Source: Nannobrachium achirus (taxonomy: Eukaryota > Chordata > Actinopteri > Myctophiformes > Myctophidae). Taken from it: 64,000 bases of DNA. A program made the translations under genes and the position numbers. The DNA lies in NCBI GenBank assembly GCA_963921795.1, contig OY997642.1:59280927-59344926 (forward strand), in the 5' to 3' direction. Shown piece by piece: positions 47,215 to 60,815 of this stretch (position 1 is its first letter; each line of letters opens with the position of its first letter). The notes below the pieces were generated by a model. The model made no database searches. It was not told the origin of the DNA and saw only the letters and a list, made by a program, of their open reading frames with translations.

Positions 47215-47251
47215 ATGATGGCTGTGGCTTTGTTTCTCATCCTTCTGACGC
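47215..47251 (+). CDS. Copy 2 exon 1: signal peptide
   Basis: Two ATGs in tandem at 47215 and 47218; I start at the first, but either gives the same hydrophobic segment [10 protein letters not shown]. The donor is C/GTAAGA after one base of the next codon (phase 1). The TATA box lies 54 bases upstream. Confidence 0.85.
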
Positions 47252-59000: not shown

Positions 59001-60815
59001 GTTGTAACTTGTTACAGTGGGGCCGTCAATACTGAGAGTGAAATTCTGGGTGTAGCGGGTGAGGGAATCTGGGCCGATGATTAGGATTTCTGATTTGTTA
59101 CCATTAAGTTTAAGGACTTTTTGCATCCATGTTTTGAGCTCTGTAAGGCAGGTGATGAGGGTGGAGAGGGTGGCAGCGGTAAAAAAAATCAAAACGTTCT
59201 CTTTGGTAGAACGAAGTGACAGGATTGATAAAAAAAAAAAAAAAAAGGATGAGACCAAGGTACAAAAGTGAAAAAAAAAACCTTAATAGTTTGGCTATAA
59301 ATCGCTAATACAAGGTAAGAAGAATAAATGCACCTACACGTTGCGGCAACAATGCCTTTATCGGCAACGTGTAGATCTGTGCCTTGGTCTCATCCTTTTC
59401 TTTTTTTCTTTTTAATCTATAAAAAATTCTATTTCACACGTGCATGTGTGTGTGTGCGCACATCTCTATACAGACCATCACCCATCCCAACAACGACGTG
59501 GCCCTGGTCAAGCTGTCCTCTCCGGCCCGCCTGAATTCCAGGGTGTCCCCCGTGTGTCTGTCCCCCTCCAGGCAGTCTTTCTCCTACGGGACACGCTGTG
59601 TCACCACGGGCTGGGGAAGAATCAGACCGTCCACATGTGAGTGGACAGACAGACACACACGCACGCACGCACGCACACACACACACACACGTACAGGGGC
59701 TTTGTTATATACTGTATGTATAAATCTCAAAAGTAGCAGATCCACACCTGACACGTTTGGGCTTGTAGATTTGCTACTTTTAGGGTCTCTATTTTCGTCC
59801 GTGCCTTACCCCTTATCTAGCCTAGGGTCCCTTCACTTTTCGGGGTTTTGGCAATTTGGCCAGAAAGATTAAACCGGATTCAGTTTTAACCCAAAATAAT
59901 TCCCCTGCGCTCAAGGATATAATTTTAGGACCTACCTAATAAACTCCTTGATGGGCATAGTTTTGCTTTTGGAAATTTTGTTTGGTATATGCATCTTTTA
60001 GTCCAACTCGTAGCGACTTGCAAGACTACATTAGCTAGGCTACTCGAGCATTTAAATAGGGTTTGGGGAAACAAACTGAGGGAACCAAAACAAAGCGACG
60101 CCGCTTCTTCTGCTTGTCAAACAGCCATTGTAAACGAATACCAGGATTTCCCCAGAGAAAGCCTGGTGACGCGAGGTTACCTCGGCTTACCCCTAACTTT
60201 TTTTTAAATATTTTTTTAGTTTAACTAGGCCATCATGTTCTGAGCTTGTAGATCAGCTATTTGAAGTATTTTAAATGTTTTTAAAAATGGTTAAAAAAAA
60301 AAAAATCAAACCTCGGTTCGAAGTGGAGCGGTGAATTTGAGCAGCTGTACCCTATGTGAGTGAGTGAGTGAGTGTAAACTGTGCCTGTGAGTGAGTGGTG
60401 AGTGTGCCTGGCCTGCACAAAACAGCGCCCCTCCTTTAACTAGTGTGTTGTGTGTGGCCACTCAAGGTATTGCCCAGGCTACGGACAGGGCCAGCCAGCC
60501 ACCCACCCACCCAGCCAGCCAGCCACATACCCACGGATATACCTGTTCATTGGGAGCGCTTTCACCGCTCCAAAAAAAGGCAAAGAAGTTTAGGGACAGA
60601 AATAGGCACGGACAGAAATAGGGCCCCTGGTTTCCACATGACAGAGACCATATGATAACCATCATTCTCTCCTGTTGTGTTCCACAGCCTTTCCTCTCAA
60701 ACTCCAGCAGGCCTGGGTACCTCTCATGAGTACATCTCAGTGTAAAAGCTACTGGGGGAACCGCATCACTGACTCTATGATCTGCGGCGGAAACAATGGA
60801 GACTCCTCCTGCTAC
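47215..60815 (+). CDS. Secreted dermatopontin-chymotrypsin chimeric protease, copy 2 (3'-incomplete)
   Basis: Ten exons join in frame with GT-AG borders to give 353 codons. Residues 1-18 approx.: hydrophobic signal peptide ([15 protein letters not shown]). 19-166: dermatopontin-like domain with three copies of HHEDRRW (about 61, 103, 155) plus W, D and paired Cys at the expected repeat spacing, closest in style to hemagglutinin/amebocyte-aggregation-factor proteins. 168-353: chymotrypsin domain with VPVCGFPS (C1), [15 protein letters not shown] (His57), NNDVALVKL (Asp102), VTTGWG and the C168-C182 pair. The Ser195 exon is not in the window; by copy 1 it should add about 53 residues, for a protein near 406. 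Odd points: no R/K-I-V-x-G activation site, and a 99-loop short by about seven residues. Exons 2-5 form a phase 1-1 module. A secreted protease with a matrix- or carbohydrate-binding N-terminus is inferred; substrate and tissue are unknown. Confidence 0.85.
47321..48289. mobile_element. hAT-type element with internal tandem units, 969 bp
   Basis: Ends TAGGGCTGGGATGCAATAAA and TCCCAGCCCTA. The flanking octamers CTTTTATT and TTTTTATT differ at one base. About four imperfect internal repeats contain TTAATTACAGGCTTTGTAAT, GACCCGAGAAGCATTTTTTT and GCATCCACTGGGCCAAGCAA. Related to 39823-40217. Confidence 0.85.
48660..49230 (-). mobile_element. LINE C-terminal fragment, antisense in intron 1
   Basis: The minus strand encodes [40 protein letters not shown], then [20 protein letters not shown] and [13 protein letters not shown]. 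This is the familiar C-terminal region of a fish LINE reverse-transcriptase ORF, followed by about 220 bases of 3' UTR to 48660. The upstream part is missing. Confidence 0.8.
49641..49731 (+). CDS. Copy 2 exon 2: start of dermatopontin domain
   Basis: Encodes [19 protein letters not shown] then [10 protein letters not shown] after a split codon. [10 protein letters not shown] is the first repeat core (W-D-N..D.P) of a dermatopontin module. Acceptor TTCACAG, donor AG/GTAAAG, phase 1 in and phase 2 out. Confidence 0.85.
49732..50317 (+). other. Copy 2 intron 2
   Basis: Holds (ATTG)n and (CTGA)n tracts at about 49908-49980 and A-rich patches. Nothing else recognised. Confidence 0.75.
50318..50503 (+). 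CDS. Copy 2 exon 3: dermatopontin repeats 1-2
   Basis: 186 bases, phase 2 in and 2 out. It encodes [16 protein letters not shown], then [19 protein letters not shown], then [12 protein letters not shown]. Both the DRRW box and the following W-V-N..D...C block are dermatopontin family hallmarks. Acceptor GATATACAG, donor GCG/GTGAGT. Confidence 0.88.
50504..50821 (+). other. Copy 2 intron 3
   Basis: Short intron. Its last about 60 bases before the acceptor (50762-50817) recur reverse-complemented at 54143-54197 in intron 7. Confidence 0.8.
50822..50974 (+). CDS. Copy 2 exon 4: dermatopontin repeats 2-3
   Basis: 153 bases, phase 2 in and 2 out. It encodes [18 protein letters not shown], then [18 protein letters not shown], then [10 protein letters not shown]. 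The intron splits the DRRW box of repeat 2 from its tail, as at the exon 4/5 border. Acceptor CTTTCAG, donor GA/GTAAGT. Confidence 0.88.
51172..51203 (+). CDS. Copy 2 exon 5: third DRRW box
   Basis: A 32-base micro-exon encoding [12 protein letters not shown] with the split codons. It closes the dermatopontin domain and restores phase 1. The donor G/GTATGTG runs directly into a (TG)n tract of about 45 bases. Acceptor AATGGCAG. Confidence 0.8.
51204..51706 (+). other. Copy 2 intron 5
   Basis: Begins with (TG)n to about 51250. It holds a fragment of the CCAGTTGGCCAAAGG dispersed family (51360-51480) and a T-rich patch before the acceptor AATGAAACAG. Confidence 0.75.
51707..51819 (+). CDS. Copy 2 exon 6: junction to chymotrypsin domain
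   Basis: Encodes [18 protein letters not shown] then [21 protein letters not shown]1 of chymotrypsinogen and the WPWQVSLQ strand are clear. The activation region reads [12 protein letters not shown] where chymotrypsinogens have R-I-V-N-G-E-D/E-A. Phase 1 in, phase 0 out; donor CAG/GTAATA, a motif repeated twice more downstream at 53-base intervals. Confidence 0.88.
51820..52923 (+). other. Copy 2 intron 6
   Basis: Begins with three tandem 53-base units (from 51818, 51871, 51924), each starting AGGTAATACTGTCACACTGT. It ends in a (CTCTC)n tract of about 55 bases (52868-52922) that merges with the acceptor. The middle is AT-rich with no other feature. Confidence 0.8.
52924..53003 (+). CDS. Copy 2 exon 7: catalytic His57
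   Basis: Encodes [17 protein letters not shown] then VLTAAHCKV. The C42-C58 pair and the catalytic His57 in TAAHC are intact. Phase 0 in, phase 2 out. Acceptor CTCTCAG, donor AC/GTAAGT. Confidence 0.92.
53171..54105. mobile_element. TIR MITE built of GGGTCA-type motifs
   Basis: Ends ACACTAAAAACTCATGGGTC and GACCCAGCAGTTTTTAGAGTGT are inverted. TA dinucleotides at both borders are compatible with a Tc1/mariner-type duplication. The interior repeats TGACCCAA in many copies. The superfamily is not certain. Confidence 0.7.
54143..54197 (-). repeat. Inverted copy of the intron 3 end
   Basis: Reverse complement of 50762-50817 with about two mismatches, including GACAGGCCTAATAGCAACCA. It brackets exons 4-7. 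Confidence 0.85.
54207..54310. repeat. (TG)n tract at the exon 8 acceptor
   Basis: About 100 bases of GT with a GCGCGCG interruption. It ends five bases before exon 8, leaving almost no pyrimidine tract. Confidence 0.95.
54316..54391 (+). CDS. Copy 2 exon 8
   Basis: Encodes [17 protein letters not shown] then FQTISVYK after a split codon, matching the chymotrypsin segment between His57 and Asp102 (H-R-V-x-L-G-x-H-D). 76 bases, so skipping would shift the frame. Acceptor GTATTCAG, donor AAG/GTAAGA. Confidence 0.88.
54661..54722. repeat. Mini-hairpin MITE of the AGCTTGTAGATC family
   Basis: AGCAGATCTACCAGCTCACAAC faces its imperfect complement across a CGTCGCGGATGCGAG-type loop. The loop resembles (reversed) those at 3920 and 63750. 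Confidence 0.75.
55813..58115. mobile_element. Element with inverted ends of about 150-280 bp
   Basis: 55813-55955 and 57830-58115 match in opposite orientation, with shared blocks GGCTCAGA..CAGATGGAGGAG, GAACAGAACTGACTGCCTG, AGCCCCAAAGACACC and CTAGTGGGGACAGAGTTAGG. Inside are (TG)n/(CA)n tracts in opposite sense (55616-55696 lies just outside, 55968-56062 inside) and the palindrome at 56192. No transposase. Confidence 0.7.
56192..56304. repeat. Perfect palindrome, 52-bp arms, 9-bp loop
   Basis: 56192-56243 is the exact reverse complement of 56253-56304, with the loop TTGTTCCTA between. The arms include GGGGGCTAGGGGGAGGGAAG and CAACTTTAT. Confidence 0.95.
58983..59215 (-). mobile_element. 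L2-like LINE reverse-transcriptase fragment
   Basis: The minus strand encodes [20 protein letters not shown] then [19 protein letters not shown] and [10 protein letters not shown], the post-catalytic region of L2-type LINE RT. Truncated at both ends. Confidence 0.8.
59246..59400. repeat. Nested foldback, about 155 bp
   Basis: GGATGAGACCAAGGTAC (59246) faces GTGCCTTGGTCTCATCC (about 59380-59396). Inside, CTACACGTTGC (59334) faces GCAACGTGTAG (59364). It ends about 70 bases before exon 9. Confidence 0.85.
59474..59636 (+). CDS. Copy 2 exon 9: catalytic Asp102
   Basis: Encodes [20 protein letters not shown], then [20 protein letters not shown] and [13 protein letters not shown]. Asp102 (NNDVAL), C122 and C136 are present. 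Between ITHP and NND chymotrypsins usually have about seven more residues, so the 99-loop is short. Acceptor CTATACAG, donor T/GTGAGT, phase 0 in and phase 1 out. Confidence 0.9.
59637..60687 (+). other. Copy 2 intron 9
   Basis: Contains (CA)-type repeats (59650-59690), a mini-hairpin with GTAGCAGATC / GATTTGCTAC arms (59736-59777), a GAGCTTGTAGATCAGC arm at 60242, (GTGA)n at 60355-60385 and (CAGC/CACC)n at 60490-60525. Its last about 60 bases resemble the sequence before the copy 1 exon at 4578. Confidence 0.75.
60688..60815 (+). CDS. Copy 2 exon 10: penultimate protease exon
   Basis: Encodes [20 protein letters not shown], then [20 protein letters not shown] and CY. C168, C182 and C191 are present, and Ser is at 189 and 190, as in chymotrypsin. 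Acceptor TTCCACAG, donor TAC/GTATGT, phase 1 in and 0 out, identical to the exon at 4578-4708. The following Ser195 exon was not found before 64000. Confidence 0.9.

Follow-up and report, generated by a model that had tools for sequence, protein, structure and literature searches.

A predicted dermatopontin-chymotrypsinogen fusion gene and its paralogues in the genome of Nannobrachium achirus

In this report, we focus on a stretch of 64,000 nucleotides of the Nannobrachium achirus genome (C5:59280927-59344926, in an assembly of 1.66 Gb and 564 contigs), hereafter the window, and particularly on gene E, which lies on its forward strand and joins a dermatopontin (DERM) domain to a chymotrypsin-type domain. 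A TATA-like core promoter (gTATAAATta, 47160..47169) is seen in the sequence some 50 bases upstream of the start codon. Exon 1 (47215..47251) carries this codon and the signal peptide, ends in a phase-1 donor, and has 36 of its 37 bases in common with a paralogue, gene G. The DERM domain begins in exon 2 (49641..49731; frame, splice sites and Pfam agree) and continues through exon 3 (50318..50503), which holds the first HHEDRRW motif and the greater part of the second, and exon 4 (50822..50974), at the end of which the third motif begins, both being supported by frame and Pfam. Exon 5 (51172..51203) brings the remainder of the third motif and the end of the domain, and closes on a phase-1 donor with no stop. 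After a junction intron of 503 bases (51204..51706), exon 6 (51707..51819) encodes Cys1, the propeptide and an altered activation site, and the protease then runs through exon 7 (52924..53003; His57 in TAAHC), exon 8 (54316..54391), exon 9 (59474..59636; Asp102 in NNDVAL, and Cys122) and exon 10 (60688..60815), which holds Ser189 and Cys191 and ends in a splice donor. The protease residue numbers used here are taken from alignments to bovine chymotrypsinogen.

These ten exons form a single open frame of 353 codons with matching phases, AG preceding exons 2-10 and GT following exons 1-10. A preliminary description of this DNA had joined them in the same way, from 47215 to 60815, and had reported three HHEDRRW repeats, His57 and Asp102; all of these are found and the ten exons stand, but the gene goes on beyond the end that had been given. 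Indeed, the frame stops at the donor at 60815 because the gene outruns the window: exon 11, which is preceded by tgtttcctccag and carries GDSGGP with Ser195 and the stop codon, lies outside the window, 6.9 kb past exon 10 (67680-67841 in extended coordinates, C5:59348606-59348767). A further copy of protease exon 11, inverted, was also observed just beyond the window, between exons 10 and 11 of E (C5:59345339-59345497, reverse strand); it begins with VDSGGP, not GDSGGP, and is not counted as part of E. The product of the ten exons scores 148.6 bits with Pfam DERM (cut-off 28.3; residues 22-169) and 152.9 bits with Pfam Trypsin (cut-off 20.6; residues 188-352), the latter reaching 212.8 bits once exon 11 is added. 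The full-length product has 406 residues, with a signal peptide and both Pfam domains. At full length, the DERM profile (PF14704) gives 148.1 bits for E and 161.6 for G, above the same cut-off of 28.3, over positions 1-151 and 1-149 of 152, and the DERM halves of the two genes have eight cysteines at identical positions. A sequence search for a solved DERM structure found none, the best match (expect value 0.09) being an unrelated enzyme.

Gene G (C5:59523771-59538752), which starts 195 kb downstream of E, is a second complete fusion gene. It encodes 418 residues with both domains, and the two products agree at 277 of 403 aligned residues. Since the 11 exons and every intron phase of G are as in E, the fusion structure of E is not a matter of chance. 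The likeness extends upstream, where 60 bases ending 4 bases before exon 1, TATA-like box included, are identical at 59 of 60 positions.

Whether this is one gene or two depends on the junction. A simple scan for a protease signal-peptide exon in the junction intron gave no candidate in E (15 ATGs in 503 bases) nor in G (39 ATGs in 2861 bases), while exon 1 of both genes, taken as a positive control, was recovered; the same scan gave two weak candidates in the junction intron of the paralogue F (20 kb, 381 ATGs). As the scan found none in E or G, two separate genes are unlikely. Moreover, in all three genes in which exon 5 was found (E, G and F), its donor is open, of phase 1 and in keeping with the phase of exon 6, and the single fused gene of the preliminary description is thereby borne out. 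The DERM module (exons 2-5) has phase-1 introns on both sides, that is class 1-1, and canonical chymotrypsinogen genes have a phase-1 intron at the corresponding place. Such flanking phases are the usual signature of a shuffled module.

In the protease half, the best sequence match among solved structures is bovine chymotrypsin(ogen) A for both genes, with expect values of 4.5e-75 for E and 1e-76 for G, and Cys1, His57, Asp102, Ser195 and Cys122 align to bovine chymotrypsinogen in both. Gene G retains Cys1, the R↓IVGG activation site (the arrow marks the scissile bond), the triad, Cys122, Cys191 and Cys220, and its residue 189 is Asp. Gene E retains Cys1, the triad, Cys122 and Cys191, but its residue 220 is Tyr (Cys220Tyr), so that the Cys191-Cys220 disulfide is lost, its residue 189 is Ser, and the loop before Asp102 is shortened. 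Its activation site reads KVF↓VERG, whether located with HMMER on bovine chymotrypsinogen or counted from Cys1 with F as the reference, and departs from the canonical tryptic site (Arg/Lys↓Ile/Val-Val-x-Gly), whereas the relatives have R↓IVGG (G) or R↓IVNG (F and E2). A two-residue insertion at this site, suggested by the E/G alignment, was rejected: counting from Cys1 against F leaves no gap, and HMMER places VERG on IVNG. Because of the F↓VERG site, we filed E as an S1A homologue rather than as an active chymotrypsin, and this site together with the lost Cys220 makes the catalytic activity of the window copy doubtful. The word "protease", used without qualification in the preliminary description, thus holds better for G than for E. 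Asp189 is the mark of a trypsin-like pocket and Ser189 of a chymotrypsin-like one; among the five copies with an available exon 10, residue 189 is Ser in E, Asp in G, Thr in F and E2, and Pro in D.

This variation leads to the family to which both genes belong. A PF14704 profile search of the assembly returned 54 matching stretches, from which 26 DERM loci were picked by hand, mostly of the exon-4 type and one per exon-4 place; a further one, C7:59342545, seen by another type of match only, is not among them. They were compared with 14 protease activation exons, those of E and G and 12 picked by hand from among the matches listed, and the counts are accordingly lower bounds. An activation exon follows downstream on the same strand, at a distance of 0.9 to 49.9 kb, at no fewer than 12 of the 26 loci. 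Ten of these joins are found on C5 at 58.92-59.58 Mb, in an array of 0.66 Mb, and there is one on C6 and one on C10. At the other 14 loci, the 60 kb downstream contain none of the 14 listed activation exons; two of these exons (C5:59430660 and C4:54720591) have no DERM upstream. The putative fusion is therefore best described as multiplied into a tandem and dispersed family in this genome, which the preliminary description had missed. The window itself holds the end of the preceding paralogue D on the forward strand, with exon 10 (4571..4705; residue 189 is Pro) and exon 11 (5797..5958; from GDSGGP to the stop, borders counted from the alignment). A separate array-like DERM copy, near G in sequence, was observed on C1 (C1:60993245 and C1:61000968-61002527); none of the listed activation exons lies downstream of it, and a same-strand match to a protease exon 11 lies upstream.

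The DERM part of the family shows diversifying selection, which was likewise absent from the preliminary description. The set comprised exons 2-4 of E, G, I, A, D, F and the C1 copy (exon 2 of D is missing), and paralogue B was tested in and out of it with its stop set to missing. For the seven paralogues, omega is 1.96, with twice the log-likelihood difference (2dl) at 14.3 against omega 1, and the comparison of M2a with M1a gives 2dl 56.7, about 40% of the codons being placed at omega 4.6. When B is included, omega is 1.84, 2dl 13.7 and M2a 2dl 63.5; the set without B and C1 gives omega 1.91, 2dl 11.6 and M2a 2dl 56.3. In simulations of the seven paralogues (60 per null model), 2dl reached at most 8.98 and 8.35, and omega at most 1.62. 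Taken alone and on its own tree, exon 3 gives omega 2.08 (plain test p 0.012; M2a p 7.5e-6) and exon 4 gives omega 1.53, not significant in the plain test (p 0.13) and significant under M2a (p 3.5e-4); with ten paralogues, exon 3 gives omega 1.41 (p 0.14; M2a p 2e-9). For exons 10 and 11 of the protease, taken from five copies, omega is 1.14, not different from 1, and there is an M2a signal (p 5e-4) that stems from exon 11 (p 5e-5) and not from exon 10. By contrast, omega is 0.10 to 0.32 when a DERM locus on C11, downstream of which no listed protease exon lies, is compared with the seven, at a synonymous divergence (dS) above 1 that is nearly saturated; pairs with H, C10 or C6 were not used, and C2 and B stood outside this pairwise comparison. 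Eight intronless chymotrypsin genes from this genome served as a control; their omega is 0.39 and a small class of codons comes out as positive (p 0.006), and weak M2a results of this code have to be taken with care for this reason.

The comparison of exons with introns adds to this picture. Between D and B, and without recourse to any model, exon 3 differs at 15 of 186 bases, with 12 amino acids changed, and the introns beside it at 2 of 292 aligned bases. Faster change of exons than of introns is thus seen beside exon 3 in this pair; it is less marked beside exon 4, where the introns differ at 18 of 257, and exons 3 and 4 together differ at 37 of 339. The D flank beside exon 2 and exon 2 of C10 were not used. 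The corresponding differences are 38/514 in introns and 46/426 in exons for G against C1, and 14/147 and 45/342 for D against F, all intron flanks being aligned locally, which favours similar stretches. The idea that exons evolve much faster than introns was rejected for E and G, in which identity is 0.849 in exons and 0.884 in flanks. For this pair, exon 11 is 96% identical and exons 6-10 are 77-89% identical, and the 3' ends are 95% identical over 460 aligned bases (L031:3526-3981 against L050:3507-3966); the contrast between these ends and exons 6-10 points to a likely recent gene conversion there.

We now turn to the known systems that the fusion resembles. With bovine chymotrypsinogen A and the vertebrate chymotrypsinogens (MEROPS S1A), E and G have in common the Cys1 propeptide, the triad and Cys122; E differs by Phe at P1 and the absence of Cys220, and G by Asp189. 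Chymotrypsinogens themselves are not known to have an N-terminal domain. The other half matches nearly the whole profile of dermatopontin and of the Limulus 18-kDa hemagglutinin-amebocyte aggregation factor (HAAF; PF14704), with three HHEDRRW motifs. To our knowledge, known dermatopontin/HAAF proteins consist of DERM alone, whereas here DERM is fused to a protease, and the same genome also has DERM loci with no listed protease exon downstream. N-terminal binding modules ahead of an S1A domain are well known in plasminogen, enteropeptidase, plasma kallikrein and factor XI, which come among the next structure matches of G and are less similar to it than chymotrypsinogen; their modules are kringle, apple and others, not DERM. 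The fusion is, in these terms, a modular S1A protease with a module that was not found described. No DERM-protease fusion was found in the literature searched, which comprised mostly papers outside subscription, so the preliminary statement that no such family is described goes uncontradicted within that literature; protein databases such as UniProt and InterPro may well already contain such proteins under automatic annotation. DERM-type proteins of fish have been met in mucosal settings: a HAAF-like protein is raised in salmon with amoebic gill disease (PMC8147987), a HAAF-like gene is among gill-expressed candidates and was proposed to aggregate amoebae (PMC8202022), and a dermatopontin-like protein of carp skin mucus is down 10.9-fold after exposure to ciliates (PMC5910588). 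The portions of these three papers that were available concern DERM-type proteins and do not mention a protease part. By analogy, a role of the fusion in mucosal defence is plausible.

Our preferred reading, to which we give a probability of about 60%, is that the region holds an 11-exon gene for a secreted DERM-chymotrypsinogen fusion belonging to an expanded family, the product being a DERM-anchored zymogen for which defence is the likeliest role. The single fused and probably secreted gene of the preliminary description is retained in it, and the targeting to matrix, mucus or cells proposed there is retained as a conjecture. The DERM module would have come to lie between an exon for a signal peptide and the propeptide exon of a chymotrypsinogen, and the chimera would then have been duplicated, both in tandem and to dispersed places. 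In the intact form, represented by G, the zymogen would be cleaved at Arg↓Ile16. As Cys1 and Cys122 are retained in E and G, the DERM chain should remain disulfide-bound to the active protease through a putative Cys1-Cys122 bond, as in chymotrypsin, and an attached DERM chain would anchor the protease and so direct its activity to a surface, a glycan, the matrix or a foreign cell. Taken with the variable residue 189, the diversification of the DERM part suggests that the targets keep changing, and it is on this ground that mucosal or humoral defence appears the likeliest function. As for the window copy, it would depend for activation on a chymotrypsin-like enzyme (Phe would be accommodated by the Ser189 pocket of E itself), or it may be a non-catalytic binding member of the family.

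Several observations weigh against this reading. Besides the altered activation site and Cys220Tyr of E, a stop is found in exon 3 of B and exon 11 of E2 has a deviant end, so that parts of the array are decaying. The whole sequence is readable for E and G only, their gene models being drawn from genomic sequence alone, and the other members are ordered exon matches: three of the 12 joins span 21 to 50 kb (B, D and F), C5:59182089 and I are seen just as DERM exons with exon 6, and a search for exons 7-9 of F and E2 was without success, the gaps there containing 5000 and 7500 N. Positive selection is not apparent in exon 10 of the protease taken by itself (omega 0.96, M2a p 0.11). For the E and G pair, omega is 0.97 and the intron flanks are nearly as diverged as the exons, so relaxed constraint is possible for this pair. 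The codon-model code is home-made, site-model tests are prone to inflation when tandem copies undergo gene conversion, and the defence role of the family is one that we infer by analogy.

A bolder form of the preferred reading is tentative at this point, and we hold it as a possibility short of even odds. It proposes an adhesin-guided protease family engaged in an arms race, in which the DERM part would track surface targets that change in microbes or parasites (or in gametes), the pocket of the linked protease shifting as well. It is even conceivable that the activation site and the pocket change in step, Arg being paired with Asp189 in G and Phe with Ser189 in E, which would yield self-activating members with different cut preferences.

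Among the rival explanations, the one that survives best, although we consider it unlikely, is that E is a decaying pseudogene in a family with working members. It would account for the non-canonical activation site, Cys220Tyr and the shortened loop before Asp102, and would agree with an omega of about 1 between E and G and with the stop in the sister paralogue B. However, all 11 exons of E are open, its splice sites and core promoter are intact, and it keeps the catalytic triad and the eight DERM cysteines. In addition, no stop is seen in the 403 aligned codons of E and G, where the neutral substitutions of one lineage at this divergence would be expected to produce about 4 (probability of none about 0.01).

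It is quite unlikely, in our view, that the products are digestive proteases anchored by DERM to mucus or food, with no arms race and with a high omega brought about by gene conversion and relaxed constraint. The nearest relative of the protease half is indeed the pancreatic chymotrypsinogen, the paralogous arrays do exchange sequence, as exon 11 of E and G indicates, and exon 4 alone is not significant in the plain omega test. On the other hand, exons 3 and 4 each exceed omega 1.5 on their own trees with a significant M2a, and the excess of exon-3 over adjoining intron differences between D and B is the reverse of relaxed drift. Finally, it is improbable that two families, HAAF-like DERM genes and chymotrypsin genes, are merely interleaved, alternating by chance and co-duplicated, for even if 14 DERM loci and two activation exons stand unpaired, and the unspliced exon 5 of E would meet a stop about 25 codons past the junction, with an AATAAA-like signal at 51596, the scan found no signal-peptide exon for a protease in the junction introns of E and G (the two weak candidates being in the 20 kb of F), exon 5 keeps its in-phase donor wherever it was found, and the order and strand of the two parts are preserved at the dispersed copies on C6 and C10.

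The preferred reading, that of a DERM-anchored zymogen family, matters for two reasons. Coagulation and complement are driven by S1A proteases that carry N-terminal binding modules, and every further module found on such a protease is a new way to place proteolysis. Furthermore, a DERM domain that is fused to a protease and is itself under strong diversifying selection makes the question of the dermatopontin/HAAF ligand directly testable: the fast DERM sites may mark the binding face, and paralogues that differ in this face lend themselves to direct comparison.

Other elements were observed in the window and in the genome. The eight intronless chymotrypsin-like genes of the control (L001-L008, on C22, C17, C19, C15 and C166) have open frames of 266-284 codons and are probably retrogenes; two of them have a changed Ser195 neighbourhood (DDSGGP and GDSGSP). 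No match was found in the window with Rfam at the gathering threshold. A long retrotransposon frame (13040-16927, with 12305-13036, reverse strand), read by eye, shows zinc-knuckle and integrase-like stretches ahead of the reverse transcriptase; with its integrase before the reverse transcriptase, it departs from the usual Ty3/gypsy order and presumably resembles Gmr1-like elements. A second retrotransposon, of the long terminal repeat type (26679-30686, reverse strand), consists of two adjoining long frames in which gag, protease, reverse transcriptase, RNase H and integrase-like stretches were read by eye in the usual order. The window also holds two tandem repeats, an array of the ATCATGGTCAGT type of about 436 bases (44905-45340) and a set of three 129-base units (62240-62624).

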